Assembly: GCA_019685655.1 (NCBI GenBank)
Contig: JABFQP010000002.1
Span: 62,001 to 126,000, forward strand
Reading direction: 5' to 3'
Source: Candidatus Bathyarchaeota archaeon A05DMB-5
Lineage (GTDB): Archaea; Thermoproteota; Bathyarchaeia; Bathyarchaeales; Bathycorpusculaceae
DNA: 64,000 nt
The translations under genes and the position numbers were made by a program. Each line of letters begins with the position of its first letter. Position 1 is the first letter of the stretch. Of the stretch, positions 40,880-57,026 are shown piece after piece. The notes under the pieces are model-generated. The model did no database searches, had not been told where the DNA came from, and saw only the letters and a program-made list of their open reading frames with translations.

Positions 40880-42508
40880 ATGGCGAAGCTCCGAGTCAAA
40901 GAAACATTAGCTAAACTTAAAAAAGTGAAAATTCGATTCAATATAGGGAAACGTCAACAAGTTGCAATTCCACCACCACCACCAAAGCCTGTTCCGAGAG
41001 GATTCAAGGTTGTTGATAAATATCCGCTTTATGAACCATTTGCTCATGTTGCCATAGTACAGAATCCAAAAACAGGCGAATACAAATACATATTAGACGA
41101 ATTACAATTAGATCCCCTAGAAAGAAACGTCTACAACCGCATCTTGGAGATATTACTTGCAGAAATAGAATCGCCAAAAGAGGAAATCTTGGACCCGAGA
41201 AAATTTTTTGCAGAAGAAGCTAAGAAAATTGTTGATAAATACCGCATAAGTTTAGGATGGTTGCCCGATGTTTCATGGTATAAGATTCTATATCACGCCG
41301 AAAGAGACCTTGTTGGTTTCGGCAGAATTGACCCGTTAATGCGTGACCCAAACATTGAAGACGTTTCATGCGACGGTGTAGGCAAACCAGTTTATATTTG
41401 GCACAGAAATTACGAAAGTATTGAGACGAATCTTGAGTTTGAAAACGATGAAGAACTTGACAACGTAGTTGTCAAACTTGTTCACATGGCTGGAAAACAT
41501 GTAAGCTCAGCCTTTCCAATAGTGGACGCTTCACTGCCGGGTAAACATAGATTAGCAGTATGCTATAGACGTGAAGTCACGCCTTTCGGAACAGCCTTCA
41601 CCATCAGAAAATTCAGAGAAGACCCCTACTCAATAATAGACTTGATAAACTTAGGCACTTACTCAGAAGAGATGGCGGCCTATTTCTGGCTCTGCCTTGA
41701 AAATAGAGCATCAATAATGGTTTTAGGTGGCACGGCGGCGGGAAAAACAACAGCTTTGAACGCTCTTGCTTGCCTCATCAAGCCTGGAAGCAAAATAATA
41801 ACCATAGAAGAAACGGCGGAACTGAATCTACCTCATGAAAACTGGGTCTCACTCATAGCAAGACAGAGCTATGGTTTAGGCGGAACCAGCGTTGGCGAAG
41901 TAACACTCTTTGACCTTGTAAAGACGTCGATGAGACACCGCCCAGACATACTGATTGTGGGCGAGATCAGAGGTCAAGAAGCATACGTGTTATTCCAAGC
42001 TTTAGCCACTGGTCACGGTGGCATGTGTACAATGCACGCTGAAAACTTGGATTCAGCAGTGAAACGTTTGACATCGAAACCAATGGATATTTCACCTGCT
42101 TACATTCCATTAATGAACATTGTGTTATCAGTCCAAAGAGTTCACTTGACGAAAGGAACAGAGAAAAAAGCGTATAGACGTGTAATAGATGTGAACGAAA
42201 TCGCAGATTACGAGGACTACAGATCTGCGTTAAAGTGGAATCCAACCAAAGACATGTATGTATCTTCATTTGACAAAAGTTTAATGCTAACGAGAATTTC
42301 TGAGCGGATAGGCGTTACTAAGAAAGAATTAATTGAGGAATTGAATAGACGCAAAGATGTTCTGCATTGGATGCGAGAACGTAACATACGCAGTTACAAG
42401 GACGTAGCCGCAATTATCGCAGAATACTATGCTAGACCAAAGCAGATTTACGAAAAAGTTCTTGCGGGGGAGGAGGTTAAAGTAGTTGTCGCTACTAAAA
42501 ACCCTTGA
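40880..42508 (+). CDS. Type IV filament assembly ATPase (TadA/GspE/VirB11-like)
   Basis: A 542-residue secretion-superfamily ATPase that powers pilus polymerisation from the cytoplasm. Walker A is GGTAAGKTT (residues about 284-292), the Asp box region IEETAELNLPHENW follows, Walker B is ILIVGEIRGQE (about 356), and the His box is TGHGGMCTMHAENL. The N-terminal domain carries a Pro-rich linker (PPPPPKPVP) and the substrate-docking DEL and RDLVGFGRIDPLMRDPNIEDVSCDG segment typical of archaeal TadA/FlaI relatives. First core gene of the pilus operon; overlaps the platform gene by 23 bp. Confidence 0.95.
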   Translation: MAKLRVKETLAKLKKVKIRFNIGKRQQVAIPPPPPKPVPRGFKVVDKYPLYEPFAHVAIVQNPKTGEYKYILDELQLDPLERNVYNRILEILLAEIESPKEEILDPRKFFAEEAKKIVDKYRISLGWLPDVSWYKILYHAERDLVGFGRIDPLMRDPNIEDVSCDGVGKPVYIWHRNYESIETNLEFENDEELDNVVVKLVHMAGKHVSSAFPIVDASLPGKHRLAVCYRREVTPFGTAFTIRKFREDPYSIIDLINLGTYSEEMAAYFWLCLENRASIMVLGGTAAGKTTALNALACLIKPGSKIITIEETAELNLPHENWVSLIARQSYGLGGTSVGEVTLFDLVKTSMRHRPDILIVGEIRGQEAYVLFQALATGHGGMCTMHAENLDSAVKRLTSKPMDISPAYIPLMNIVLSVQRVHLTKGTEKKAYRRVIDVNEIADYEDYRSALKWNPTKDMYVSSFDKSLMLTRISERIGVTKKELIEELNRRKDVLHWMRERNIRSYKDVAAIIAEYYARPKQIYEKVLAGEEVKVVVATKNP

Positions 42509-44180
42509 GGCGTGGTCTTTCCGCATCTTTGGTAGGCTGGCGCCTTCCTTCCTTAAGAATGTCTTTGAATTCAAGGGCTACTTGGAAAGGGCGAAAATCA
42601 AGATTTATCCAGAAACCTATGTTTCAATGATGTTTTTTATTGCTGTGCTTACACTTCCCGTCAGCATAATATCTATACTACTTCTTTACTTCTACGGTTT
42701 TTTGCCAATAATATTCTTAGTTCCGCTTCCATTCTATGTCATGATAGGTTTTCTGTTAATACCCATGTCAAAAGCAAGTGATAGAGCAAGCAACCTCGAG
42801 AGAGAAATGCCCTTCGCAGCTGCTTACATCAGCGTCATGGCTTCTGGAGGCATCGCTCCTTACACAAGCTTCAAACGACTTGCAGAAGTTGAGCTTATGC
42901 CTTCAATGAGAAGCGAAGCAAGAGAAATTTTGAAGGACGTGGAGATTTTCGGCATAGACCCACTCACTGCCATAGAGAATGCAGCAAAGAAAAACCCGTT
43001 GGACGTGTTTAAGGATTTTCTTTCAGGATATGCATCAACGGTTATCATAGGCGGCGATATTGGACATTTTCTTGAGAGGAAAGCCGAAGATATTTTCAAA
43101 ACAAGAGCAATGCGCGTTAAGGCTGCGGCTGAAAGACTTGGAATGCTCTTAGAGACCTTCATAATCGTAATGGTTCTGATGTCTCTATGCTTCTACATAC
43201 TGTTCAGTGTAGAATCGTTCTACAGCGCTGGCATATCAAGCTCTTCAGGCATAATTCTATACACTTACTTGTTTACGCCCATGTTGTCAATAGTGTTCAT
43301 TTACTTAGCACATAGCATGCAACCCAAAACGCCAGTTGTAGAAACACGCCCTTACAAGGTCTTCGGAATCTGCAGCGCAATAGCAATAGTGCTACTGATG
43401 CTACTCACTAATTTCTTGGGATTTATAGAAGTTCCATTCTTAAAACCTATTCAAACAATGGTAGACTTACCCATAGCAATCTCCATAGCCTTATTCATTG
43501 CAACAGCACCAGCAGCGGTTGTGCACAGTAGATTGTCAAAGAAAAAATCCAGCATGGAACAAGGCATAAACAGTTTTCTGAGAGACTTAACAGAAGTTAG
43601 GAAAACAGGGCTGTCTCCGGAAAAATGCATTGAAAGTCTTGCTCATCGGGATTATGGCGAATTCAGCAAAGAACTACGTAAGATAAGTTCAGAAATCTCT
43701 TGGGGAGTCCCAATTAGGAAAGTGATACTTGATTTTGTCAAGCGAGTCAAAAGTTGGATGACTCAAGTCATCATGTTCTTGCTTGTCGAAACAATAGATG
43801 TGGGAGGCGGAACGATAGCCATGATTGAATCTATAGCTAGGTTTAACAATCTTACTCAAGAAGTCGATAAAGAAAAGAGAATGGCAGTTCGTCCCTATGT
43901 ATTAATGCCATATTTTGCTGCGATTCTACTAGTGGCGACAACAACAATGATGATTGGTATCATGCCAGCAACTCTGGGAGTTGCAGGAGGCTCAAAAGCA
44001 ACAAACCTAGGTCCAACAATAACGATTTTCGTTACTTCAAGCATTTTTCACAGCTACCTTATTGGTTTGGTTGCGGGTAAAATCAGTGAAGAATCGATTG
44101 CTGCTGGTTTCAAGCATGCCTCTGTTCTGGTAATAATTGCTGTGTTGGCGGCAAAGTTGACCCCAATGTTAATGGGTTAA
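42486..44180 (+). CDS. Type IV filament platform membrane protein (TadB/TadC or FlaJ-like)
   Basis: A 564-residue integral membrane protein with two T2SSF-type domains: LEREMPFAAAYISVMASGGIAPYTSFKRLAE in the first half and GINSFLRDLTEVRKTGLSPEKCIESL in the second, each followed by membrane helices (about nine in all). It docks the ATPase at the membrane. A single fused protein replaces the TadB plus TadC pair of bacterial Tad systems. TTG 42486 has GGAGG 9 bases upstream. Confidence 0.93.
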   Translation: MSLLKTLEAWSFRIFGRLAPSFLKNVFEFKGYLERAKIKIYPETYVSMMFFIAVLTLPVSIISILLLYFYGFLPIIFLVPLPFYVMIGFLLIPMSKASDRASNLEREMPFAAAYISVMASGGIAPYTSFKRLAEVELMPSMRSEAREILKDVEIFGIDPLTAIENAAKKNPLDVFKDFLSGYASTVIIGGDIGHFLERKAEDIFKTRAMRVKAAAERLGMLLETFIIVMVLMSLCFYILFSVESFYSAGISSSSGIILYTYLFTPMLSIVFIYLAHSMQPKTPVVETRPYKVFGICSAIAIVLLMLLTNFLGFIEVPFLKPIQTMVDLPIAISIALFIATAPAAVVHSRLSKKKSSMEQGINSFLRDLTEVRKTGLSPEKCIESLAHRDYGEFSKELRKISSEISWGVPIRKVILDFVKRVKSWMTQVIMFLLVETIDVGGGTIAMIESIARFNNLTQEVDKEKRMAVRPYVLMPYFAAILLVATTTMMIGIMPATLGVAGGSKATNLGPTITIFVTSSIFHSYLIGLVAGKISEESIAAGFKHASVLVIIAVLAAKLTPMLMG

Positions 44181-44192
44181 AAAGGGAGGAAA

Positions 44193-45050
44193 ATGAAGAT
44201 AAAAAATATTCACCTTAAAAAGCTAAGAAATGATAAAAGAGCAGTTAGCCCAGCAATTTCTGCAGTTATAATAACAAGCGCTGTTGTGGTTTTGGTTCTT
44301 GTAGCGGTTGTTTTTGCAAACAACTACTTGAATGGGCGAATTGCAGAGAACGAATTCGCCGCGATGAAACAGTTCATGCAAACAGTAGGGCTGGATATAG
44401 ATGATGTGGCATGGATGCCTGGACGTACACAAACAGTTCGTTACGCAAGCAAGTATGGACAGATATATTTCGAAACCGCAGTTTTGAATTACACTGTCTA
44501 TGTGAATAAGGGTGCTGGATATGTTTACTTAGCAAACTACACTACTGGCGTCATCTTGTTCAAAATGCCTATAAGCAGATATTCAGTTGCAGACAATTAT
44601 CACGAACGCATTTTTCCCTTAGATAACTCTTTTCTTCAGAAAGGCACATCCGCGCCAGTAAATCACATTTTTGTAGTTGAAAAGTTGGCAATGAATGATG
44701 GAAGTTTCATAAGGGTAGTTGTCGCTCCATCAATCAGAATGTTGAATTCAACAATTTTTACAGGAGGAGAAACGATTAATTATGCAAAGTTTTACTTGCC
44801 CATACTCAACTCGGGAAATCATTCTTACCTTTCACAATCCGTTACACTCATGGGAAAGAATGTCGCTGTCAAAACAGAGGGTAGCGTTAACTCGGTTAGA
44901 ATAGAAGTTTCTTTCCTGAAACAAAGTTTAGGATTTGATGAGAGTTTCTTCAACTTTCGCAACACAGTGGAAGAAATTGACGTAGCGGATGGTTCTGTTA
45001 TTAAGTTTTACACGGGAGAGGTGACTACATCGTTAGGGCTCTATCCATAA
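44193..45050 (+). CDS. Archaeal type IV pilin-like protein with class III signal
   Basis: 285 residues. The N-terminus is basic (KIKNIHLKKLRNDKR), then A-VSPAISAVIITSAVVVLVLVAVV, the SP-x-x archaeal pilin signature with cleavage expected after KRA (near residue 18). The rest is a beta-rich, glycosylatable ectodomain (N-x-T/S sites). Larger than the usual major pilin (about 120-160 aa), so it may be a minor or tip pilin. 12 bp after the platform gene. Confidence 0.85.
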   Translation: MKIKNIHLKKLRNDKRAVSPAISAVIITSAVVVLVLVAVVFANNYLNGRIAENEFAAMKQFMQTVGLDIDDVAWMPGRTQTVRYASKYGQIYFETAVLNYTVYVNKGAGYVYLANYTTGVILFKMPISRYSVADNYHERIFPLDNSFLQKGTSAPVNHIFVVEKLAMNDGSFIRVVVAPSIRMLNSTIFTGGETINYAKFYLPILNSGNHSYLSQSVTLMGKNVAVKTEGSVNSVRIEVSFLKQSLGFDESFFNFRNTVEEIDVADGSVIKFYTGEVTTSLGLYP

Positions 45051-45071: not shown

Positions 45072-45554
45072 ATGCCTCATATAACCATCGAATACGTCAT
45101 CTTAGTCCCAATTTTAATATTACAGATTTTCCTATTTCCACTTACAGCAAGCTGGCTCATGAGCACATGGGTGGATTCACGAAGAAGCTTGGCTCTTCAA
45201 GAAGCAGCTAGCCATTTAGGCAGCATAATGCAACAAATGTATTTCTCATTAAGCCATGACACAATATTAGCTGGTTCTGTAACGCAAAAACCAGATGTTC
45301 CACTATATATAGAGAATAATCCGTATACAGGAAGCGCAACGCTGAAAACGGTAGTAGACGAAACCCAGAATGCGAGCAAAATTTTGGACATAACCTTCAA
45401 ACTAGAAAACACTGGAATCACAGCAACAACACGCGTTATTCTAGGTCAAAATGCTTTATGGAAAAATTCCACTTTCGTGAGCAATTCAGCCAACACTTGC
45501 ATAGTGGCTGAAAAATTTGAGAATGGAACAATTTCTCTATCTTTTGGAGGATGA
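45072..45554 (+). CDS. TadE-like pseudopilin
   Basis: A 160-residue protein with a single N-terminal helix: MPHITIEYVILVPILILQIFLFPL. The TIEYVILVPILI stretch with an early Glu matches TadE-type minor pilins (VEFALVLPxLL). Its short N-terminus lacks a classic class III leader. The ectodomain is beta-rich with N-x-S/T sequons. It lies between two other pilin-like genes and is likely a minor subunit. Confidence 0.65.
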   Translation: MPHITIEYVILVPILILQIFLFPLTASWLMSTWVDSRRSLALQEAASHLGSIMQQMYFSLSHDTILAGSVTQKPDVPLYIENNPYTGSATLKTVVDETQNASKILDITFKLENTGITATTRVILGQNALWKNSTFVSNSANTCIVAEKFENGTISLSFGG

Positions 45555-45568
45555 GGGAGAAATAAGCC

Positions 45569-46783
45569 ATGGCAGGTTCAACAATAGACCACCTCGTTTC
45601 CGTCGTTGCCTTTTTAGCGGCGATACTGATTTTCATTAGCCTATTTAACCAAATTCTACAAACCGCAGCATTATATCAACGGCACAGAAGCCTCGCAATG
45701 AAATGCAGCGATTTGCTTGACAACATGTTATTGAGCCCAGGCATACCATCTAATTGGGGGCAAACAAACGTTACGCCTACCGGTTTTGGACTGCAAGATC
45801 CAGAGTTCACGCAGTACAGACTTAGCGCATTTTCGCTTATGCGGCTGATTTCTTCCGTTGGGACACCAGTGTACTACCCGAAAACCGATCAATGGTACAG
45901 CAACATAACAATGGGTTTCGGAAACTTTTTACTAACATCATTCAGTGAGGCTATTAACTATTCAACAGCATCGAGACTCCTCGGATTAAACGGTACTTAC
46001 GGCTTCCAACTAACCATAACGCCAATTGTAACTCTTTCAATTTCAGAAACCCAATCCAAAAGCCCATTGAGAATAGCTGTTAATGTTACGGGAAGAGGAT
46101 TCCCTCTAGCAAACGCTGCAGTAAGCTACTGTTTTCTCACCGTTGACTTAAAAGGAGTGTTTCCAGACTACAAAACAACATACGGTACGGTTTATACTGA
46201 TGAAAAAGGTTCGACATCGTTAGAATTTTCAGAGATCACAAAGGAAGACACTTCATATGCCTTAATTGCGTATGCCAAGTTAAGTGGACTTATTGGAGTT
46301 GGATATCATCAACGTGTAAGCTCCACTGGACAATACGTAATGCCATTTGTTGACAACATTGAAGAGGGCCGAGTGATTATTGCGCATAGTTGGGATGTTC
46401 ATGGTGGAGATAACCCAGCAGAGATTTCTTACAATGCAACTTTTGTTTTATTGGCAGAAGATTTCACTCTACGTGAAGTACCATTGGGCGCGGATAAAAT
46501 TGGCAAGGTGAATTATGGCAAAGGACAACCATACAAGAATGTCACTATTCCAACCCATAACCCCGGCATTTTGGTTATCACTTACAAAAAAAGTGCGGTG
46601 GAAGGAGGCATCATCATGATGCCATGGGGAATAAGCGCCATGGCTTTTCCAGTAGTATTCGGAGAAGACCCTTCAGGAAAGGAATGGGTAGCCACTGACA
46701 TACGCCAAGTCATAGTCAATGACATTGCCTATCAAGCGACCTTGGCTTTGTGGAGCCTTGAGGGTTACCAGGTGATCAAGTAA
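45569..46783 (+). CDS. Pilus-locus surface protein with N-terminal helix
   Basis: 404 residues: MAGSTIDHLVSVVAFLAAILIFISLF at the N-terminus carries an acidic residue at the same place as the neighbouring TadE-like protein (TID versus TIE), followed by a coiled region and a large beta-rich ectodomain with Ig-like character near residues 150-250 (PLANAAVSYCFL). Probably a filament-associated pseudopilin; no named family recognised. Confidence 0.6.
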   Translation: MAGSTIDHLVSVVAFLAAILIFISLFNQILQTAALYQRHRSLAMKCSDLLDNMLLSPGIPSNWGQTNVTPTGFGLQDPEFTQYRLSAFSLMRLISSVGTPVYYPKTDQWYSNITMGFGNFLLTSFSEAINYSTASRLLGLNGTYGFQLTITPIVTLSISETQSKSPLRIAVNVTGRGFPLANAAVSYCFLTVDLKGVFPDYKTTYGTVYTDEKGSTSLEFSEITKEDTSYALIAYAKLSGLIGVGYHQRVSSTGQYVMPFVDNIEEGRVIIAHSWDVHGGDNPAEISYNATFVLLAEDFTLREVPLGADKIGKVNYGKGQPYKNVTIPTHNPGILVITYKKSAVEGGIIMMPWGISAMAFPVVFGEDPSGKEWVATDIRQVIVNDIAYQATLALWSLEGYQVIK

Positions 46784-46784
46784 A

Positions 46785-48089
46785 ATGATGCGAACAATTG
46801 AGGTTTTACTCGTAATAATCATCATCACCGCAGCCTTCATAATTTCCTCCTTCTTCGCCGTGTTACCACAGCCACGAGAAGTTTCACCTCTCAATCTAAG
46901 AAGACTTGCATTAACGACCCTTCAGACGCTGGATAGGGATTACGATCTAAGCGAGATAGTGTTCAAACCACCTAATGACCCTTCTTGGAGCGAACTTCAA
47001 ATAGCACTCGCAGCCACGTTACCTCCTAGTATTGTTTACAACTTGACGGTTTACGAGGTCTCGAGCGATGGCGCTATACTCTATAGTCCTCTAAAATCAA
47101 TCTCCAACGCAGAAAGCCTTGGAATAGATTCAGAAGCTTCATCTTATCTGGTCGCTTCTTCTAATGTGACTTTTAATGTTGTTCCGGAGAAAATTGGAGA
47201 GCAAGGCGGCGGAGGAACGCTGTACATATTGAATTGTAGCGATGCCAACGGATGGTGGATCACCGGATACACAGCCCAAAGCCTCGCACAAGACCTATAC
47301 AATTTACTTTCACCATACTTTCAAATCACAATAATGATTCAAAACACTGCCCAACTTGCACAGGTACTAAATGGCACAGCATTGCAGAACGAAGTGTTAC
47401 AAAATGCCGTAATCATAAACACCTTCGGAGAAGCCGTACCAATACCCGCAGGATACTACGCAAGCTCAGGCGTTGGATACGACCCAGCACACAGTTCCTA
47501 CGCAAAATATTGCCATACTCTAGGATTAAGAGTACGTCAGTACAATTGGACATGGGTTAGCATAGTAGGCTATCCACTCTACTATGTCAGCAATACTGCG
47601 CTATTTCCAGACGAACAAAACACATGGGGCATCTACGGAATGAGGCACGTCGGACCAGCAGGATTAACAGCTTTCCTTCAAGGCATAGATAACCAAAACT
47701 ATGTGTATAATTCCGGCTGGATTACGGGAAGCCCAGGAGTTGTTTATCTTTCCAACGAAGCCTCGTATTATTGCAATTATTATGGTATTTATCCTTCTCC
47801 ATATCAAACAGCCACAAGAGCACTTCCCTCATCAATACTGAATACTTATCACTTAACGGTAACATCCTACATCTTCAATCAAGTGGATAACTGGATTGCA
47901 GGCGCGTTTTTCAAGAACAATGTTTCAGGTTCATTTTTAGCTTTGGGTTTAACAAGAACCCCGGATATTAGACTCACAGCGTTAGGTCTCTTGTGCGGCT
48001 ATAAGCCAAGACTTTATCGATCCGAGTACACAGCTTATGGAACTTCAAGGCTTGTCGTTTTGCAGCTTGGGCTTGTAGGAGGTGTATAA
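46785..48089 (+). CDS. Pilus-locus surface protein with N-terminal helix
   Basis: 434 residues with an N-terminal helix MMRTIEVLLVIIIITAAFIIS, again with a TIE motif, and a large exported Tyr/Asn-rich domain with many sequons. A GGGGTLYILNCSDANGWW segment and following alpha/beta pattern resemble no family I can name. It starts 1 bp after the previous gene stop and ends 2 bp before the next start, so translation is coupled. Confidence 0.6.
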   Translation: MMRTIEVLLVIIIITAAFIISSFFAVLPQPREVSPLNLRRLALTTLQTLDRDYDLSEIVFKPPNDPSWSELQIALAATLPPSIVYNLTVYEVSSDGAILYSPLKSISNAESLGIDSEASSYLVASSNVTFNVVPEKIGEQGGGGTLYILNCSDANGWWITGYTAQSLAQDLYNLLSPYFQITIMIQNTAQLAQVLNGTALQNEVLQNAVIINTFGEAVPIPAGYYASSGVGYDPAHSSYAKYCHTLGLRVRQYNWTWVSIVGYPLYYVSNTALFPDEQNTWGIYGMRHVGPAGLTAFLQGIDNQNYVYNSGWITGSPGVVYLSNEASYYCNYYGIYPSPYQTATRALPSSILNTYHLTVTSYIFNQVDNWIAGAFFKNNVSGSFLALGLTRTPDIRLTALGLLCGYKPRLYRSEYTAYGTSRLVVLQLGLVGGV

Positions 48090-48091
48090 TC

Positions 48092-51000
48092 TTGAATGAA
48101 AAAGGGCAATTCTCAATAATTGCCGCTTTGCTTGTTGCAGTTATCCTTATATCGACAGTTGTAATCACTTACTCCACGATACGCAACAGCCCAATCCAAA
48201 ATCAACCACAAGTCCAAAGCGCAATAGATGAAACTAATCTTGCCTTGAAACAAATTCTAGGCTTCACCATAGGCTATTACGGCTCTATTCTGCAAGTTAC
48301 AGGAAACTCTTCTTACGCGAAGACGCTTGCCCTAAACTATCTTCAAAGCGGATTAGAAAACATGGGAAACATGCATCCAGAATGGGGAACATCATTCAAC
48401 GTAACCAGATCACAGCTCTATGCATACTGGTTCACAAACACCAGCTACAGCACAGGAGAACTCGTAATAACATACAATCTCACTGGTCTCGGAATTTACG
48501 GAGTATCCTATGAAACATCAAGCAGACTAGATGTTAAAGTCATGAACACAACAGCGGACAATGAAGCTTGTTTAGAGATAACCAAAGATGGGATTGAACC
48601 GCTCATAAATCTTGGAAAACAAAACTTCAAGTTCTACCGTTACTGGGAAACAAATTCGTCATGGACATTAATTGAGCCAAGCACGGAGCCAATAGCCTAC
48701 GCAAATGGCACATATTTAGTAGATATTCCATCAGGGATAGACCCAAAGTCTTATGTTATTCAAGTAAAAGATTCAAGAGGAATAATTGTTGTTGCTTCCA
48801 CATTCAGCCACTATACGATTACATTATCATGGAGCTCAGCTCAATCCTCATCGCAAAACTACGTGGATAACAACACATCGGATGTAGATGCCTCAGAAGA
48901 TAAAGGGTCACATAGCAACTTTCCAGCTCAGCAATCTTTTGATGGAGTTTTCGACACTCTAACAGAAGGAAAGACCAGTAGAAATTTCCTGGCTAAAAAG
49001 GGAACTTTCACAAAAGCCACAACGACAGGAACACAGGCAGTCACTGGTGTTGGTTTCACGCCTAAAGTAGTTATCTTATGGTGGACACGACAAACCTTAT
49101 TGGGTGAATTACCCTCCATTAGTGTAGGCTACGGATTCGCAACCAATTATAGCGGGCTATATCAAAATCGCGGAGTTGCTTTTGCATCAGACGATGGACT
49201 GGCAGACTCAAATGCTGGAAGGTACAGGTCTGAAACATATTCAATAATAATTCTGTCTTCAGGAAACCCCACCGCTACGGCTTTAGCCAGCATAACGAGT
49301 TTTGATGCGGACGGTTTTTCCTTAAACTGGCAAATAAACGAGAATAGAGCGGACATAATACATTATTTAGCTCTAGGTGGAGAAGACTTAATCTACGCAA
49401 AAGCAGGTTCATTTAGTCTATCGACAGCGTCTGGAACACAAGACATAACAGGTGTTGGCTTCCAACCAAATTTTGCAATGTTTCTCTGGACTTATACCGA
49501 AGCAGTGAACACAGGCACCTCTCACGCTGAGATAGGCATAGGATTTGCCGCGTCCCCAACAAAGAGGGCAGCATTGGTTGCCGCTTCTGAAGATGGCAGA
49601 GGAACCACAGATACATGGCGACAACAGAGAACAGACTCCTGCATACTTCTTCTGGATCCAACATCAGGCAGTCAAGACGCAATTGTTGATTTCAGCCAAT
49701 TTCTAGCTGACGGTTTTAGAGTTAACAAAATTGATGCTCCTGCAGCTATAACTCCAATCTTTTATCTTGCATTAAAAGGTGGAAATTATGATGTGGGAAG
49801 TTTCAATTCGCCAACTTCCACAGGAACCCAGGATATTGCAACTCTTGGTTTTCAACCAGCAGCAATAATGTTGGCAACGCAAGGGCGCTCATCAACTATG
49901 ATAGGTCAACACGCTGAAGCATCTCTAGGTGGAGCGACATCTGCAGCTGATAGGGGCGTGACATGGTTTGAAGACCGAGATGGCTTAAGCACTTCGGATA
50001 ATGAAATGGAAACTTTGAACACAAGAATCATTCAATGGAGAGATAGAACCGCTTCCGACACATTCTCATTACGAGGTTCAGCAGATTTTGTTTCGTTCTT
50101 GTCTACCGGATTCAGGTTGAGTTGGAGCAATGTAGAAGCTTCTGGAAGACAAGTAATTTATGTGGCGTTTGGAGGAGACAACTATGAACTTGACTTGGAA
50201 GTTCAATGGACAAATGTCTACTATAACGGAACAACAGAGGAACTTGCCATTTACGTCGACAATATGAACGCTACAGAAAACTTGCGGGTGGATGTTTGGT
50301 ATGGTGGCTCATGGCAGAATCTTTTCCCAAGTCTCGTAAACGGATGGAACAACGTTTCAGTTATTCCTTACTTAGACGCTTCAGTGTTTACTATAAGATT
50401 TAAGGGCGCTAGCGAAAGCTTGGATTCTATTCAAGACAGTTGGAGAATAGACGCAACAATTCTAAAAGTTTGGCCGTCTCCAGATTTGTATGCGTCTTTG
50501 CAAAATGCGACGGTTGTTATTGAGTTGTTACAAAATGGCACGATGAGGTGGCTCGGCCAGAATTTGCAGTTGTCAACACAAGCTCAACCTATTCCACCCA
50601 TACCAGTGAAGGCTATTCGAGTAAACCAAACCATAGATGGCGTAAATACAGAGGTTCCGTTCCAAATTGAAGATTGGGCGTCAGAATATCGCATACCGTT
50701 AGGACTGGCTAACAATGCGAGTGTTTTTAACAACAGGAACATGCTGGTTTTTCTCGTAACTAGCAAAGTTTCTAAAATCACTATATGGTGGGATGGAGGA
50801 GACGACGTTAATCAGACAGCTTATGCATACACCAACAGATACTTCACCGGAGACAATCCTTCTGGCAGAACGCTGACAAATGGAATATTGACACTTCAGT
50901 TTCCTCCTGACGACAATGATAATGGATTTCCTGTAACCTCTACTGCTGGGACCCAATCTTCAGTTGCATCATTCATGCGCATCAACAACGAATGGAGTGT

Positions 51001-51652
51001 TTATGGAGCAAGTCCAGCATACGTAATTCATCATGGCATAGTAAGGGACATAGTGCATCAAGAATCAGAGTGGAGTGGCGGAGCTGACAACTGTCCGAAT
51101 CTTTACGCCCATGTAGTAATAACTTTGCCAGCCAACGCATCCTACTACACTTACCAGTTGAGACTAATGTTTGTAAATTCACAGCAAGCCAGAACCATCA
51201 CAGACTTATGCCCACTTAAATTAACCACTATGATAGGTACACCACAAACTGAAAATGGAATTGTAGGCGGTTTTCCTGCAGTCTCGGAGGCAACAGGTCT
51301 ATTCTATAATACCTCAAGTTCCACTTGGGAACACCATTGGAGCCAGTTCATCTCTGGAAATAGAGGTACAGGAATAATGTTCACTGACACAGCGAATGAA
51401 ATGCTCTACGTTTTTGATGCTATTGCAGGAGACAAAACAGGCGCTCTCAGAGTTTCTAATGCCACAGAAAGAGCTATTGAATTAGCTCCAGTAACATCGA
51501 TGGCTCAAGTGGCGTTTACGTATGCATTAGATGTTACATGGCATGGCGCCGTGGTTACGTTTGACGGAACTACACCAATCTATAGCGGAGAAAATGGCCT
51601 GTGGATAATTGTTGAGTACCCACCAACAGTTACGGTTACAACGGAGGGTTAG
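48092..51652 (+). CDS. Giant prepilin-like adhesin candidate with three tandem beta repeats
   Basis: 1186 residues. The N-terminus MNEKG-QFSIIAALLVAVILISTVVI is a class III prepilin leader: short, basic, Gly before the cleavage site, then the polymerisation helix. Three related domains of about 130 residues follow (about 304-438, 439-565, 566-705), each opening with a T-G-T-Q-x-(V/I) motif and GF-P, and closing with a GF-x-L/V-x-W/K then YLAL-G segment. A beta-rich C-terminal region (about 705-1186) ends without a membrane anchor. Architecture fits a pilus-tip adhesin (inference). Confidence 0.8.
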   Translation: MNEKGQFSIIAALLVAVILISTVVITYSTIRNSPIQNQPQVQSAIDETNLALKQILGFTIGYYGSILQVTGNSSYAKTLALNYLQSGLENMGNMHPEWGTSFNVTRSQLYAYWFTNTSYSTGELVITYNLTGLGIYGVSYETSSRLDVKVMNTTADNEACLEITKDGIEPLINLGKQNFKFYRYWETNSSWTLIEPSTEPIAYANGTYLVDIPSGIDPKSYVIQVKDSRGIIVVASTFSHYTITLSWSSAQSSSQNYVDNNTSDVDASEDKGSHSNFPAQQSFDGVFDTLTEGKTSRNFLAKKGTFTKATTTGTQAVTGVGFTPKVVILWWTRQTLLGELPSISVGYGFATNYSGLYQNRGVAFASDDGLADSNAGRYRSETYSIIILSSGNPTATALASITSFDADGFSLNWQINENRADIIHYLALGGEDLIYAKAGSFSLSTASGTQDITGVGFQPNFAMFLWTYTEAVNTGTSHAEIGIGFAASPTKRAALVAASEDGRGTTDTWRQQRTDSCILLLDPTSGSQDAIVDFSQFLADGFRVNKIDAPAAITPIFYLALKGGNYDVGSFNSPTSTGTQDIATLGFQPAAIMLATQGRSSTMIGQHAEASLGGATSAADRGVTWFEDRDGLSTSDNEMETLNTRIIQWRDRTASDTFSLRGSADFVSFLSTGFRLSWSNVEASGRQVIYVAFGGDNYELDLEVQWTNVYYNGTTEELAIYVDNMNATENLRVDVWYGGSWQNLFPSLVNGWNNVSVIPYLDASVFTIRFKGASESLDSIQDSWRIDATILKVWPSPDLYASLQNATVVIELLQNGTMRWLGQNLQLSTQAQPIPPIPVKAIRVNQTIDGVNTEVPFQIEDWASEYRIPLGLANNASVFNNRNMLVFLVTSKVSKITIWWDGGDDVNQTAYAYTNRYFTGDNPSGRTLTNGILTLQFPPDDNDNGFPVTSTAGTQSSVASFMRINNEWSVYGASPAYVIHHGIVRDIVHQESEWSGGADNCPNLYAHVVITLPANASYYTYQLRLMFVNSQQARTITDLCPLKLTTMIGTPQTENGIVGGFPAVSEATGLFYNTSSSTWEHHWSQFISGNRGTGIMFTDTANEMLYVFDAIAGDKTGALRVSNATERAIELAPVTSMAQVAFTYALDVTWHGAVVTFDGTTPIYSGENGLWIIVEYPPTVTVTTEG
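49003..50200 (+). repeat. Three tandem protein-level repeats of about 390-400 bases
   Basis: The repeat units begin near 49003, 49407 and 49795. Conservation is at protein level (T-G-T-Q then G-V-G-F-x-P or L-G-F-x-P) and has drifted at DNA level, so this is an old duplication inside the adhesin candidate, not a recent slippage repeat. Confidence 0.7.
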
Positions 51653-51755: not shown

Positions 51756-52217
51756 ATGTTAACAGAAAATAACGTGTTAAAATCTAGAAAAGCTATATCA
51801 CCAATATTGGCTACGTTATTGCTGATTGTTATTGCCGTTGCAGCTATAGTTGTTACATACGCGTGGATAATGACCTACGTAAGTAGTTCTGGACAACAAG
51901 CAGGCGTATCGCTATACAAAGAGAATATTTACTGGAATTCAACTGAAAAAAAGACTTACATAACTGTAGGCAATTCTGGAACTGGCAACACTAAAATAGT
52001 GAGGCTTTACCTGGGAACAGCGCAAGCCAACCTTGTTAATGTGACAGCATACACGAACATTGGCACGGGAATTATGCTTAACGCAAAATCAGTAGCCACA
52101 ATAGCATTGTCTTGGCCAAACGATGTAGCAAATGACTGGGCATCGGGAAACTACTACTACTACAAGATAGTCACGGAAACGGGACACGAACTACCATTCC
52201 CAGAACAAGCACCCTAA
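51756..52217 (+). CDS. Archaeal type IV pilin (probable major subunit)
   Basis: 153 residues with the textbook N-terminus: LKSRKA-ISPILATLLLIVIAVAAIVVTYAW, i.e. Arg-Lys-Ala before the cleavage point and the ISPILA start of the polymerisation helix, then a compact beta-rich head with a few sequons. Size and separate promoter suggest the major pilin. AGGGAG lies about 6 bases before the ATG. Confidence 0.9.
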   Translation: MLTENNVLKSRKAISPILATLLLIVIAVAAIVVTYAWIMTYVSSSGQQAGVSLYKENIYWNSTEKKTYITVGNSGTGNTKIVRLYLGTAQANLVNVTAYTNIGTGIMLNAKSVATIALSWPNDVANDWASGNYYYYKIVTETGHELPFPEQAP

Positions 52218-52356: not shown

Positions 52357-53157
52357 TTGCAGACAATACTGGCATTAGCAAGAACTTCGCTTGCTCTCGC
52401 ATTTTTAGTATATGCCTCCTTTTCTGATTACAAAACTCGCGAAGTAAGCAATAGTGTGTGGATACTGTTTGCGCCTCCAGCGTTTGCATTGACATTTATG
52501 GAGCTGATTCTTGTTGAGCAATCTCAACTGCCTTTTTATGGCTTAAGTTTCGGTTTGACATCAGCCTTCGCAATAATCCTTTTCTATTCTGGAGGTTTTG
52601 GAGGTGCTGACGCGAAAGCTTTGATGTGCCTAGCGCTTGCATTGCCCTTTTATCCAGAAAGACTATTCACTCCGTTATCAGGACAGAATTCGCCAATTTC
52701 ACAAATGCTTTTTCCAATAAGTGTTTTCAGTAACGCTGTCTTGTTTGCGGCAGCAGCGGCTGTTTACATTCTTTTGCGTAACGTGTTTTGGCGTTGGAGA
52801 ACGGGGAAGGAACTTTTTGGAAAGGGTTATGAGAGCGAATCTTTTGGGAGGAAAATTTTGGTTTTGATAACTGGTTACAAGGTTCCTATTGACAAGTTAA
52901 AGCAAAAATGGCATTTGTATCCTTTGGAAGATGTGGAGGAAGAAACTTTCAAACAGAAATTGGTCATCATTCCTAAGGATGAAGGGAGAAACGCCATAAT
53001 TGAGCGGTTAAGTAAGGCAGCGGACGCTGGGAAAATTCAAAACAACGTTTGGGCAACGCCTGGTCTTCCAATGCTCATCTTCATAACTGCAGGTTTAATC
53101 GTAGCCTTATTTTTCGGCGATATTATTTGGGTTTGCATTCGCTTCTTGCTTGGTTAA
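52357..53157 (+). CDS. Archaeal prepilin peptidase (FlaK/EppA-like, A24 aspartic protease)
   Basis: A 266-residue polytopic membrane aspartic protease that removes class III leaders. The two catalytic Asp motifs are SDYKTREV near residue 23-30 and GFGGADAKALM near residue 84-93 (the GxGD-like site). Helices flank both; a cytosolic insert of about 110 residues precedes the last helix. It closes the pilus locus, 139 bp after the small pilin. TTG start at 52357. Confidence 0.92.
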   Translation: MQTILALARTSLALAFLVYASFSDYKTREVSNSVWILFAPPAFALTFMELILVEQSQLPFYGLSFGLTSAFAIILFYSGGFGGADAKALMCLALALPFYPERLFTPLSGQNSPISQMLFPISVFSNAVLFAAAAAVYILLRNVFWRWRTGKELFGKGYESESFGRKILVLITGYKVPIDKLKQKWHLYPLEDVEEETFKQKLVIIPKDEGRNAIIERLSKAADAGKIQNNVWATPGLPMLIFITAGLIVALFFGDIIWVCIRFLLG

Positions 53158-53171
53158 AGCCATAAGGAATT

Positions 53172-54332
53172 ATGAAAAACGTTATCTGGATTCGCTGGTT
53201 ACTCTGCTTTATGGTGAAGCAAGGCGTGTCTTCTGATTTTCTTGAAGAATTGTTAGATTTCTTGAAAAACGGAATTAGAGAATTTAGCGTAGTTGTTATG
53301 CCAGATTTTTTCTTTGACCGTTTTTTGAGCATAAGCTTTGATGCAGAGAGTTTCTGTGACGCGCTCATGGATGTTATTGAACGGAAAGGCGGAAGCATAG
53401 ATGGTATTGAACAAGCAGAGTTTAGAGGCGGAAACGCGATTAACACAGCATCAGCTTTGGCTGCTTTGGGTGTGAATGTTACTCCAATAGTTTGCACGAG
53501 TAAACTAGGACTAGAGTTTATCAGATTTTACCTTAAATCCAGCATGGTTAACCTTTCTCGTGTAAAGATTCTTGAAAAACCATCAATAACAACCGCTATG
53601 GAATTCAAAACGGAAAAAGGAAAGGCTAATGTTATGCTCAGAGATGTGGGTTCGCTTGCTAATTTTGGACCCAATAATCTAAGCAGTGAAGATTTTGAAG
53701 CAATTGAGAAGGCTGATTACGCATGTGTTTTTAACTGGGCTGGGACTAGGCGTTTTGGAACAGAGTTAGCTGAGACCGTTTTTAGACATGTTAAAACAAA
53801 GGGGAAAGGCAAGACTTACTGTGACACGGCAGACCCAACTCCTAACAACGAAAAAGTTTCTGAATTGACGAGGAAAGTTTTGCAGAGCAAATTTTTGGAT
53901 ATTTTAAGCGTAAATGAGAACGAAGCAGTATGTTATGTATCCCAAGTGAGCAATGAACTGAAAAAAATTGGAAAACGCTTGAAATTTAACGAATTAGCAA
54001 AGGAAGCCGCTAAAATCTTGAGGTCGCACCTGTCTGCGCGAGTTGACTTGCACACAACAAGCTTCTCGGTAACATTTACCAAAAAAGGCGAAACAGTTGT
54101 TCCTGCTTTCAAGGTTCCAGTTTTGAGGGTGACTGGTGCGGGAGATGCTTGGAATGCGGGGAATATTGTTGGAGATGCTTGTGGGCTTTCGGATGGTTGT
54201 CGTTTGTTGTTGGCTAATGCTGTTGCAGCCTATTACATTTCAAGTTCGAATGGTTTGCATCCAACGAGAGAAAAGTTGATAGAATTTCTTGAAAGGTTTA
54301 AGCGGAAAAGCAGCTCTATAGCAAGTGCCTAA
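53172..54332 (+). CDS. PfkB family carbohydrate kinase
   Basis: A 386-residue sugar kinase of the ribokinase fold. The N-terminal signature is FRGGNAINTASALAALG and the C-terminal ATP/active-site motif is VTGAGDAWNAGNIVGDA with the catalytic Asp. The first 65 residues form an unusual helical extension before the fold. AAGGA 4 bases before ATG 53172 supports the longer start. It sits ahead of glmM-glmU, which suggests a role in sugar-phosphate supply, but the substrate is unknown. Confidence 0.85.
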   Translation: MKNVIWIRWLLCFMVKQGVSSDFLEELLDFLKNGIREFSVVVMPDFFFDRFLSISFDAESFCDALMDVIERKGGSIDGIEQAEFRGGNAINTASALAALGVNVTPIVCTSKLGLEFIRFYLKSSMVNLSRVKILEKPSITTAMEFKTEKGKANVMLRDVGSLANFGPNNLSSEDFEAIEKADYACVFNWAGTRRFGTELAETVFRHVKTKGKGKTYCDTADPTPNNEKVSELTRKVLQSKFLDILSVNENEAVCYVSQVSNELKKIGKRLKFNELAKEAAKILRSHLSARVDLHTTSFSVTFTKKGETVVPAFKVPVLRVTGAGDAWNAGNIVGDACGLSDGCRLLLANAVAAYYISSSNGLHPTREKLIEFLERFKRKSSSIASA

Positions 54333-54375
54333 ATTTATTTAAACCATAAAGGTGAATTAGCCCATTTAGGGATGC

Positions 54376-55752
54376 TTGGAAAGGTTGAAGTCAAGGTTGT
54401 TTGGTAGTTCAGGCGTGCGAGGCTTAGTGAACATTGATTTAACGCCTACTTTGGCGGTTAAAGTGGGTTTGGCTGTGGCGACTTTTTGTAAGGCGAAGAA
54501 AGCGCTTGTGGCGCGTGATACTAGAGTTTCTGGTTTGATGATTGAAAACGCGTTGGTTTCTGGTTTGTTGGCTGGAGGAACGGATGTTAGTTGTTTGGGT
54601 GTTGCGCCGACTTCTGTTTTGGCATTTTTAACGAAGCAGTTAAATGCTGATGCTGGTGTGATGATTACTGCTTCGCATAATCCGCCACAATATAATGGTA
54701 TTAAAATTTTTGGTAGCGATAGTATGGCTTATGGTGAAAAGGAACAGGAGGCAATTGAAGGAATTATTGAGGGTGGACGTTTTAGGTTTGTGGATTGGCG
54801 TGATTTTGGTGAAGCGTCATCTGTTGACAAAAATGCGTTGTATATTGATACAATAAAGAAAAGTGTCAAATTACGCAAAAAATGGCATGTAATAGTTGAC
54901 CCTGGATGTGGCGCCACGCACAGTCTTGCGCCTTTAATTTTTGAAAGGTTAGGATGCAAAGTAACTGCTGTCAATGCGCATGCTGATGGGTTTTTCTCTG
55001 CCAGAAGCCCTGAACCAAATGCTGAGGTTTTAAGGTCTTTAGCTAGGATTGTTCGGGAGTTTGGTGCTGATGTTGGAATAGCTTATGATGGCGATGGTGA
55101 TAGAGTGAGTTTCATTGATGAGAAGGGTGGTTTTGTGGATTTTGACCGTGTGTTAGCTGCGTATGCAGCATACGTGGTGGGGAAGAAAAAGGGTGGTGTT
55201 GTGGTGACGAATGTTGAGGCGTCTATGTGTTTTGAGAAAATGGTTGAGGCGCATCGTGGGAAGGTTGTTAGGACAAGGGTTGGTGATGTTTATGTTGCTG
55301 AAGCAATGGAGCGGTATAAGGCGGTTTTTGGTGGAGAACCGTGTGGAGCATGGATACATCCTCAAATTCATTATTGTCCAGATGGGATACTTTCTTCTGT
55401 GTTGCTGCTTAAGGCGTTGGAAGAAAAAGGTGAAAAGCTTTCAGAATTTGTTGCTGAGGCGCCTAAATTTGTGACGCTTAGAGAAAATGTTCACTGTGAG
55501 GATGGTGTGAAATGTAAGGTCGTGGAGAAAGTTGAGAAGGGCTTGAAAACTGTTTTTCCAAAGTTTATAGAGTCATCTACGGTTGATGGTATGCGTTTGG
55601 CTTTTAAGGATGGGTGGGTTTTGGTTAGGGCTTCTGGCACTGAACCGCTTATTAGGTTGACGGTTGAGGGTGAATCATTAAAAGCAGCAAAGGAGATAAT
55701 GGGTAAGAGTGTGGTGTTTGTTAGGAAACTTGTTAAGGAGATGGAAAAGTGA
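54376..55752 (+). CDS. glmM: Phosphoglucosamine / phosphohexose mutase
   Basis: A 458-residue alpha-D-phosphohexomutase. It has the N-terminal GSSGVRG, the phosphoserine loop TASHNPPQYNG, the metal loop DGDGDRV and the sugar-specificity and phosphate-binding loops GEPCGAW and RASGTEPLIR. GEPCGAW and the partner glmU favour glucosamine 6-phosphate to glucosamine 1-phosphate conversion. TTG start at 54376, with a TTG at 54385 as alternative. Codon use is strongly G/T-ending. It overlaps the next gene by 4 bp. Confidence 0.88.
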   Translation: MERLKSRLFGSSGVRGLVNIDLTPTLAVKVGLAVATFCKAKKALVARDTRVSGLMIENALVSGLLAGGTDVSCLGVAPTSVLAFLTKQLNADAGVMITASHNPPQYNGIKIFGSDSMAYGEKEQEAIEGIIEGGRFRFVDWRDFGEASSVDKNALYIDTIKKSVKLRKKWHVIVDPGCGATHSLAPLIFERLGCKVTAVNAHADGFFSARSPEPNAEVLRSLARIVREFGADVGIAYDGDGDRVSFIDEKGGFVDFDRVLAAYAAYVVGKKKGGVVVTNVEASMCFEKMVEAHRGKVVRTRVGDVYVAEAMERYKAVFGGEPCGAWIHPQIHYCPDGILSSVLLLKALEEKGEKLSEFVAEAPKFVTLRENVHCEDGVKCKVVEKVEKGLKTVFPKFIESSTVDGMRLAFKDGWVLVRASGTEPLIRLTVEGESLKAAKEIMGKSVVFVRKLVKEMEK

Positions 55753-57026
55753 AAGCAGTGGTTTTGGCTGCTGGTGAAGGAGTTAGGCTTCAACCAATCA
55801 CGTCGACTAGACCGAAGCATTTGATAAAGGTTGGCGGAAAAACGATATTGGGACATTGCTTAAGTGCTGTGAAAAGTTGCGGGGTTGACGAGGTTTTAAT
55901 TGTTGTTCATTATATGGGAGATGCGATTCGCGAGTTTTTTGGTGATGGCAGAAAGTTTGGGTTGAAAATCGATTATGCTGAGCAGAAGAATGTGCTTGGT
56001 ACTGGCGATGCTGTGAGTGTTGCTGAGCCTTATGTAGAGGATGATTTTCTGCTGGTTTATGGTGACTTGCTGTTTTCTGCAGAAGCCGTGAAGAATGTTG
56101 TTAATCTGCATAGGGAAGAAAAACCTGCGGCAACGATGGCTGTGGTTCTGGTTGAGAATCCGGAGAATTATGGTGTGGTGGAGCTTGAGAATGAGAAAAC
56201 TGTTAAGCGTATAGTGGAGAAGCCAAACCGTGGTGAAGCGCCAACAAACTTGGCGAATGCGGGCATTTACGTGTTTTCAACTGAAATTTTTGAAAAGCTG
56301 AAGGCGACATCGAAATCGGCTAGGGGTGAATGGGAAGTAACGGATGCTATTTCGCTTTTGGCTAAAGATAAGACGGTTTTGGCTGTTAAGATTTCGAGGG
56401 AGGATTGGATTGATATTGGGAGACCTTGGGATTTGCTTGAGGCGAATCGTTGGGCGTTGATGAGGAAAGAGCATAAGGTTTGTGGGATTGTGGAAAGCGG
56501 TGCGCATTTGGTTGGGCCTGTTAGTGTCGCGGAAAGTGCGCGGATACGTTCAGGAGCTTATGTTGAAGGCCCAGCGTTTATTGATGAGGAGAGTGATATT
56601 GGACCTAATTGTTACATTCGTCCATACACTAGTATTGGTAAGAAGGTTCGGATTGGTAATGCTTGTGAAGTGAAGAATAGTATAGTTATGGATGGTGTGC
56701 ATGTTGGACATCTGTCTTATGTTGGCGACAGTATTTTGGGTGAGAAATGTAATTTGGGGGCTGGCACAGTAACGGCGAATTATAGATTTGATGCTGGAAC
56801 GGTGAAGATGGTGGTTAAGGATAGGGTTGTGGATAGTGGAAGAACAAAGCTTGGTGTGGTTTTGGGTGACAATGTGAAGACTGGGATAAATGCGCTTTTC
56901 ATGCCTGGCGTTAAGGTTGGATGTAACAGTTGGATTGGTCCAAACGTTGTGGTTAGCCGTGATGTGAAGGCTGATGCGGTAGTATTGTTAAAGCAGGAAG
57001 TTGAGGAAGGAAAATTGAATTCTTGA
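55749..57026 (+). CDS. glmU: Bifunctional sugar-1-phosphate nucleotidylyltransferase / acetyltransferase
   Basis: 425 residues. The N-terminal nucleotidyltransferase domain has AVVLAAGEGVRLQPITSTRPKHLIKVGGK; the C-terminal left-handed beta-helix has hexapeptide repeats (VGPVSVAESARIRSGAYVEG, IGKKVRIGNACEVKNSIV, LGAGTVTANYRFD). In archaea such proteins acetylate glucosamine 1-phosphate and make UDP-GlcNAc (ST0452-like). GTG start overlapping the glmM stop (GTGA). The product feeds N-glycan synthesis, linking it to the 24-36 kb island. Confidence 0.92.
   Translation: MKAVVLAAGEGVRLQPITSTRPKHLIKVGGKTILGHCLSAVKSCGVDEVLIVVHYMGDAIREFFGDGRKFGLKIDYAEQKNVLGTGDAVSVAEPYVEDDFLLVYGDLLFSAEAVKNVVNLHREEKPAATMAVVLVENPENYGVVELENEKTVKRIVEKPNRGEAPTNLANAGIYVFSTEIFEKLKATSKSARGEWEVTDAISLLAKDKTVLAVKISREDWIDIGRPWDLLEANRWALMRKEHKVCGIVESGAHLVGPVSVAESARIRSGAYVEGPAFIDEESDIGPNCYIRPYTSIGKKVRIGNACEVKNSIVMDGVHVGHLSYVGDSILGEKCNLGAGTVTANYRFDAGTVKMVVKDRVVDSGRTKLGVVLGDNVKTGINALFMPGVKVGCNSWIGPNVVVSRDVKADAVVLLKQEVEEGKLNS

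Follow-up and report, generated by a model that had tools for sequence, protein, structure and literature searches.

What does a protein of 1186 amino acids that begins like a pilin do in an archaeal pilus operon? The question is raised by Candidatus Bathyarchaeota archaeon A05DMB-5 (GCA_019685655.1; genome of 1.51 Mb), from which we analyzed 64,000 nt of contig JABFQP010000002.1 (positions 62,001-126,000, forward strand), hereafter the window. An ORF on the + strand at 48092-51652 starts with TTG and counts 1186 codons; it is called gene H below and its 1186-aa product the large protein. An initial annotation, made from the sequence alone, had proposed a pilus adhesin laid out as a helix, three domains and a tail. 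The overall idea stands, as far as a prepilin-leader protein within a pilus operon is concerned, but this layout has to be replaced by a pilin module and a platform module with an exchangeable insert.

Gene H and its operon

The genes around gene H, all on the + strand, are the following.

40880..42508, +, gene B, pilus assembly ATPase (T2SSE 5e-36, PilB3_C)
42486..44180, +, gene C, UpsF-like membrane platform protein (T2SSF 5e-25)
44193..45050, +, minor pilin-like D, leader KRA, predicted cut before VSP (relatives match DUF7289)
45072..45554, +, minor pilin-like E (synteny)
45569..46783, +, minor pilin-like F (synteny)
46785..48089, +, minor pilin-like G, always adjoining H upstream (synteny, 59 loci)
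48078..48084, +, Shine-Dalgarno-like GGAGGTG, 7 nt 5' of the TTG start (read from the sequence)
51756..52217, +, pilin I, UpsA-like, probable major pilin (archaellin/pilin N-terminal model match)
52357..53157, +, prepilin peptidase J, FlaK/PibD-like (A24 match, 2e-10 / 6.5e-23)

The window carries a type IV pilus operon whose row of minor pilins is closed by gene H. The location in a pilus operon, already given by the initial annotation, is borne out by the T2SSE, T2SSF and A24 peptidase matches and by that of pilin I. The stop of gene G is at 48089 and the TTG start of gene H two bases further on. G lies immediately 5' of H in 59/59 loci examined (those in which the H pilin module is present together with DNA upstream of it), and the order B-C-D-E-F-G-H is retained wherever the contig extends far enough. 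Homologues away from pilus genes, which the initial annotation had named as a reason to abandon the adhesin idea, do not occur among those with flanking DNA. Its other such reason, an ordinary uncleaved N-terminal anchor, is not borne out either, as the homologues conserve the leader.

Compared with its nearest homologue, from the same genus, gene H gives a dN/dS of 0.06-0.11 in all segments. By this measure it is a real, coding ORF under purifying selection throughout, head included. Its product contains 21 N-glycosylation sequons.

Leader and N-terminal helix

48092..48106, +, prepilin leader MNEKG, predicted cut between G5 and Q6 (kept in all homologues; cleavage predicted from sequence)
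48107..48187, +, hydrophobic N-terminal helix, residues 6-32 (hydropathy; the AF2 model of homologue L031 gives a helix at 4-32)

In archaeal prepilins a charge is expected at -2 and G, A or S at -1, and the EppA-cleaved pilins of Methanococcus have KG before the cut and Q after it (PMC4371748). The 52 scored homologues have G at -1 in 51 cases and A in one, K, R or E at -2 in 47, and Q at +1 in all 52. MNEKG thus deserves the description of a good prepilin site that it had received, its -1 and +1 positions being conserved. The large protein itself presents a charged residue at -2 and G at -1, with the cut ahead of a hydrophobic stretch; an ATPase, a platform protein and a prepilin peptidase are encoded alongside, as for an archaeal type IV pilin. 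Only residues 7-25 are strongly hydrophobic (Kyte-Doolittle 2.98); further on, no 19-residue window exceeds 1.16, so the large protein has no second anchor, in agreement with the initial annotation.

Two features of the N-terminus count against reading the large protein as a modular pilin. First, position +5 is I in 52/52 scored homologues, where EppA-type class III pilins have Glu. Second, the protein is missed by the N-terminal models of class III pilins and archaellins: it shares Q at +1 with the EppA-type pilins (PF04021, Class_IIIsignal) without matching their model, and a PF04021 search of its own genome gave zero matches.

A weak resemblance was found with DUF7261 (PF23922), in 16/26 rows of the pilin module alignment. 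For the window protein it is colinear from residue 1 and scores 14.8 bits; the best listed score is 17.8 (L154), short of the curated cut-off of 27 bits. Similarly, a D-type relative matches DUF7289 and an E-type relative DUF7266, below the curated cut-offs. These three resemblances, all weak, suggest from sequence that the minor-pilin row has relatives elsewhere in archaea. Our literature search found no publication on DUF7261/7288/7289.

Two conserved modules and the site of insertion

48092..48838, +, pilin module, residues 1-249 (alignment A1, 26 rows, mean column identity 58%; stand-alone proteins 241-268 aa)
50483..51649, +, platform module, residues 798-1186, 389 aa (alignment A2, 21 rows)

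In an initial comparison of whole proteins, the relatives aligned to residues 1-249 and 798-1186 and skipped the middle. Fifty-eight core proteins, of up to 1461 aa, were dissected with profiles of the pilin and platform modules. In insert-free homologues residue 249 closes the pilin module and the platform module begins at 250-251, so that the two abut within one or two residues; insert-bearing homologues keep that boundary. As read from the alignments, the head cassette of the window protein (residues 250-797) sits at the pilin/platform junction, and across relatives the base is constant and the head variable. The question whether relatives keep the leader while their heads vary, raised by the initial annotation, receives a strongly positive answer from these 58 homologues.

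The state of the insert differs among them: 20 have none, 27 have one at the junction, six have inserts in other loops only (at various places within the platform module) and five have a C-terminal extension of at most 824 aa. The junction inserts (135-548 aa) form five classes without full-length similarity to one another: about 150 aa (n = 6), about 137 aa (n = 2), about 305 aa (n = 2), 446-531 aa (n = 13) and 548 aa, the class of the window (n = 4). The tree of the 58 core proteins calls for at least 17 switches of insert state, against a mean of 34.5 for shuffled labels. Close sisters may differ: L053 (C-terminal extension) pairs with L058 (F5/8 type C insert), and L054 (no insert) with L141 (extension), both with SH-aLRT 100. 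Since the changes are fewer than with shuffled labels yet many for 58 proteins, and since close sisters differ, heads seem to be inherited for some time and later exchanged.

In the homologue at L058 (8705-11101) an F5/8 type C domain, recognised by a curated match (5e-11), is inserted close to the C-terminus of the platform module, and the inserts of L059 and L135 are homologous to it. This position is a second docking site. F5/8 type C domains have a galactose-binding-like fold and are often sugar or lipid binders.

The platform module is present in 61/250 genomes of the class and, contig ends excepted, is always accompanied by the pilin module; the pilin module alone occupies position H in L074, with 241 aa, and in L155, with 245 aa. 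Two distant relatives of 725-748 aa, L154 (9050-11227) and L160, combine the pilin module with a partial platform module and come from other groups of the phylum; the two-module core therefore predates the class.

The insert-free homologue L031 was modelled with AF2 on six alignment rows. The mean pLDDT is 41.8 and only the N-terminal module is usable: it shows the helix followed by beta strands up to residue 236, at a pLDDT of about 50-83. Foldseek and VIA return common beta-sandwiches for it; archaellins figure in the weak part of the Foldseek results, and we gave these matches no weight. As the core model is poor, which weighs against the modular-pilin reading, the insertion loops cannot be assigned to one face and the pilin fold is putative. 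Among PDB sequences, the module profiles (pilin, platform and head) found matches at chance level only, and the whole large protein found nothing usable in Pfam, NCBIfam, PHROGs or PDB sequences.

The three-repeat head and its relatives in tailed viruses

The window cassette is built as follows.

48839..48982, +, linker, residues 250-297, with the motif YVDNNTSDVD...DTLTE (also in other inserts, second-operon large pilins and secreted proteins)
48989..49384, +, R3 repeat 1, residues 300-431 (repeat comparison; viral relatives)
49391..49780, +, R3 repeat 2, residues 434-563 (repeat comparison; viral relatives)
49784..50182, +, R3 repeat 3, residues 565-697 (repeat comparison; viral relatives)
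50183..50482, +, accessory domain, residues 698-797, 100 aa, recurrent cassette end (about 15 further proteins have a homologous domain)

The three tandem domains of about 130 aa that had been noticed at first sight are confirmed: the repeats of this head (R3) are 30-33% identical in pairwise comparison (E 1e-10 to 2e-16). The long beta-rich tail described behind them is present, but it is made of two parts, the accessory domain and the conserved platform module. The repeats cannot be taken as the conserved functional unit of the protein, as they are absent from 54/58 homologues. Within the class R3 occurs in 4/256 genomes, from two genera, and solely in the gene H protein; a fifth genome is marginal (E about 1e-3).

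Outside the class, R3 was found in 46 IMG/VR contigs (L075-L120) and in one complete podovirus genome, and no relative of the head was found in plasmids. Exactly three copies are present in 22 of these 46 viral contigs and more than three in none. The three-copy forms are either a protein of 400-440 aa or the N-terminal portion of a larger one, and some of the genes adjoin terminase, portal or collagen-like tail-fibre genes. The module (about 400 aa) matched no family in Pfam, NCBIfam and PHROGs scans. As the cellular distribution is patchy, capture from a virus by the cell appears more likely than the reverse. In GC and GC3 the insert is similar to the rest of gene H, so base composition gives no indication of a foreign origin.

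Modelling of the repeats, which the initial annotation had envisaged, was successful: with the viral sequences as alignment, the AlphaFold/AF2 model has a pLDDT above 90 over most of the 400 residues. Phage proteins are among its best matches in BFVD (E from 4e-7). In the PDB the top three rows are engineered single-chain C1q/adiponectin trimers (5hkj, 5hzf, 4dou), each covering all three repeats, with modest Z scores of 6.4-6.8 over 219-230 aligned residues (rmsd 5.2-5.6); with Z below 8 the match may reflect a common arrangement only. Pseudaminidase, PCSK9 and an apicomplexan APC-beta domain rank next. No sequence match links R3 to C1q families. The constant copy number of three, together with the trimer match, suggests that R3 would be a single-chain pseudo-trimer of three beta-sandwich repeats. 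A Foldseek comparison of the head with the PDB had also returned coronavirus spikes and fructofuranosidases, mostly at TM 0.05-0.12, which we dismissed as noise due to beta content.

Linker, accessory domain and a second pilus operon

Outside the four R3 homologues the accessory domain is found at 38-59% identity. Together with the linker it also occurs in other inserts, and in large proteins that a second pilus operon, of Ups-like type, encodes in related genomes and that mostly begin with a pilin-like leader, which argues that modules are traded between pilus systems. In L063-L067 and L071 this operon comprises an ATPase, two T2SSF proteins and a small pilin, and the protein with linker and accessory domain (600-1200 aa) lies at its end or beside it. 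In L064 the cassette seemingly splits the body of a small pilin; in L063 it follows an unsplit pilin body. Linker and accessory domain are also present in secreted proteins without pilin leader (L069, L070 and L072), that of L070 having in addition a concanavalin-like Laminin_G_3 domain.

Proposed role of the large protein and alternatives

Taken together, we consider it likely that gene H encodes a modular archaeal pilin with an exchangeable head. The large protein would be exported by Sec and held in the membrane by its N-terminal helix; the A24 peptidase of the operon would cut between G5 and Q6, and the ATPase/platform pair would insert it, with D-G, into a type IV pilus. It is most likely part of a tip complex, as the shaft would not accommodate its bulk; an analogy is offered by S. 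sanguinis and the Kil pilus, whose modular minor pilins, also bulky, were modelled at the tip (PMC9934059, PMC12075869). Minor pilins may, however, lie at the base or side rather than at the tip. The head would bind a surface ligand, glycan or protein; in this genus R3, as a monomeric pseudo-trimer, would fit a virus-type receptor-binding part borrowed for adhesion. C1q-domain genes adjoining phage tail-fibre genes have been proposed to encode receptor-binding proteins (PMC3909814). These archaea have probably re-tooled their pili by swapping surface-binding parts, since the base is conserved and the head interchangeable, the head here being a module that is, elsewhere, almost confined to tailed viruses.

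More tentatively, and with somewhat less than an even chance in our opinion, the complete picture would be that of a pilus tip protein of Bathyarchaeia with a fixed internal docking site and permissive loops, whose unrelated heads are exchanged within genera and come from the second pilus system and from tailed viruses, here as a virus-captured single-chain pseudo-trimer receptor-binding module.

The large protein could instead be a minor pilin with a structural or priming role at the tip or base, its inserts being spacers or S-layer contacts and not heads that bind a ligand. The core is constant in the operon and must have a function of its own, since insert-free relatives exist (20/58), and the DUF7261-like N-terminus recalls a small family of uncharacterised proteins. 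We nevertheless judge this unlikely: the turnover of lectin-like and virus-type heads at one fixed site is expected of a display site, not of a spacer, and the head is under strong purifying selection. It is less probable still that the protein is an ordinary surface protein whose N-terminal anchor stays uncleaved. The missing +5 Glu and the unmatched pilin models would agree with that, but many archaeal pilins also lack the +5 Glu (PMC4371748), [GA]-Q is invariant at the predicted cut and the -2 charge conserved in the 52 homologues, and the linkage to pilus genes and peptidase is strict. Finally, a pseudopilin-like surface complex of bindosome type, in which an oversized prepilin-leader protein would serve nutrient binding without a long pilus, is very improbable, because the match of gene C to BasF (6e-31) is surpassed by that to UpsF (7e-36), the operon includes an ordinary pilin gene, and the family scans revealed neither a substrate-binding domain behind the pilin leader nor any substrate-binding protein family.

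Comparison with known systems

The preferred reading, a modular pilin with an exchangeable head, has its closest counterparts in bacteria. PilB and PilC of Streptococcus sanguinis, like gene H, join a pilin module to a grafted module, adhesive in their case, and have heads that vary between species (PMC8179133, PMC9934059). Gene H differs in being archaeal, in having its swap site internal, between two conserved modules, with loop sites in addition, in belonging to a family that reaches 1461 aa (860 in the 2021 survey) and in sharing its head with tailed viruses. That survey relied on a motif of bacteria and is silent on archaea (PMC8179133). The corresponding N-methylation motif (IPR012902) is not among the Pfam/NCBIfam matches of the large protein, although a grafted module is present; gene H would thus work like bacterial modular pilins without being a member of them. 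The Kil/Tad tip complexes of Myxococcus likewise have interchangeable minor pilin tips with exposed variable domains (PMC12075869), but there whole tip complexes are swapped as paralogous gene sets, whereas here the insert of one gene changes in one conserved operon.

In archaea, a 2016 census of type IV pilus loci listed about five minor pilins as well as secreted proteins of large size, predicted to be adhesins or minor pilins (Makarova et al. 2016, PMC4858521). The gene H protein belongs to this broad class of large putative adhesins/minor pilins; the text of the census does not name Bathyarchaeota, the passages considered here describe no insertion site, and its predicted tip proteins carry DUF2341, which is lacking here. 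Nor did family scans detect the IPR008707 beta-propeller of PilY1/PilC tip adhesins. With the phage C1q-like receptor-binding proteins (PMC3909814) and the single-chain C1q/adiponectin trimers, R3 may share a threefold beta-sandwich head, but it has no sequence match to C1q proteins, consists of three tandem repeats in one chain and reaches a Z of just 6.4-6.8.

As far as we found, the internal docking site, the record of its occupancy in 58 proteins, the trade of modules with a second pilus and the virus-type head are new to the published literature. If our reading is true, the modular-pilin strategy reaches archaea and archaeal adhesion is tied to proteins of tailed viruses. What archaeal pili display is mostly obscure, and so are the means by which archaea that have no closely related cultured model attach to surfaces or partners; a docking site that is defined and comes with natural variants of the head makes the question testable.

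Genes flanking the operon

Directly 5' of the pilus ATPase gene, 38072-40801 encodes a surface protein of 909 aa that combines beta-helix, PKD and macroglobulin-like domains and is anchored in the membrane at its C-terminus; in relatives it is often retained at the same place. The peptidase gene is followed, at 53172-57026, by sugar kinase-like, phosphohexomutase and sugar-nucleotidyltransferase genes; a link with pilus glycosylation is possible. The first two of these are also often retained there in relatives.
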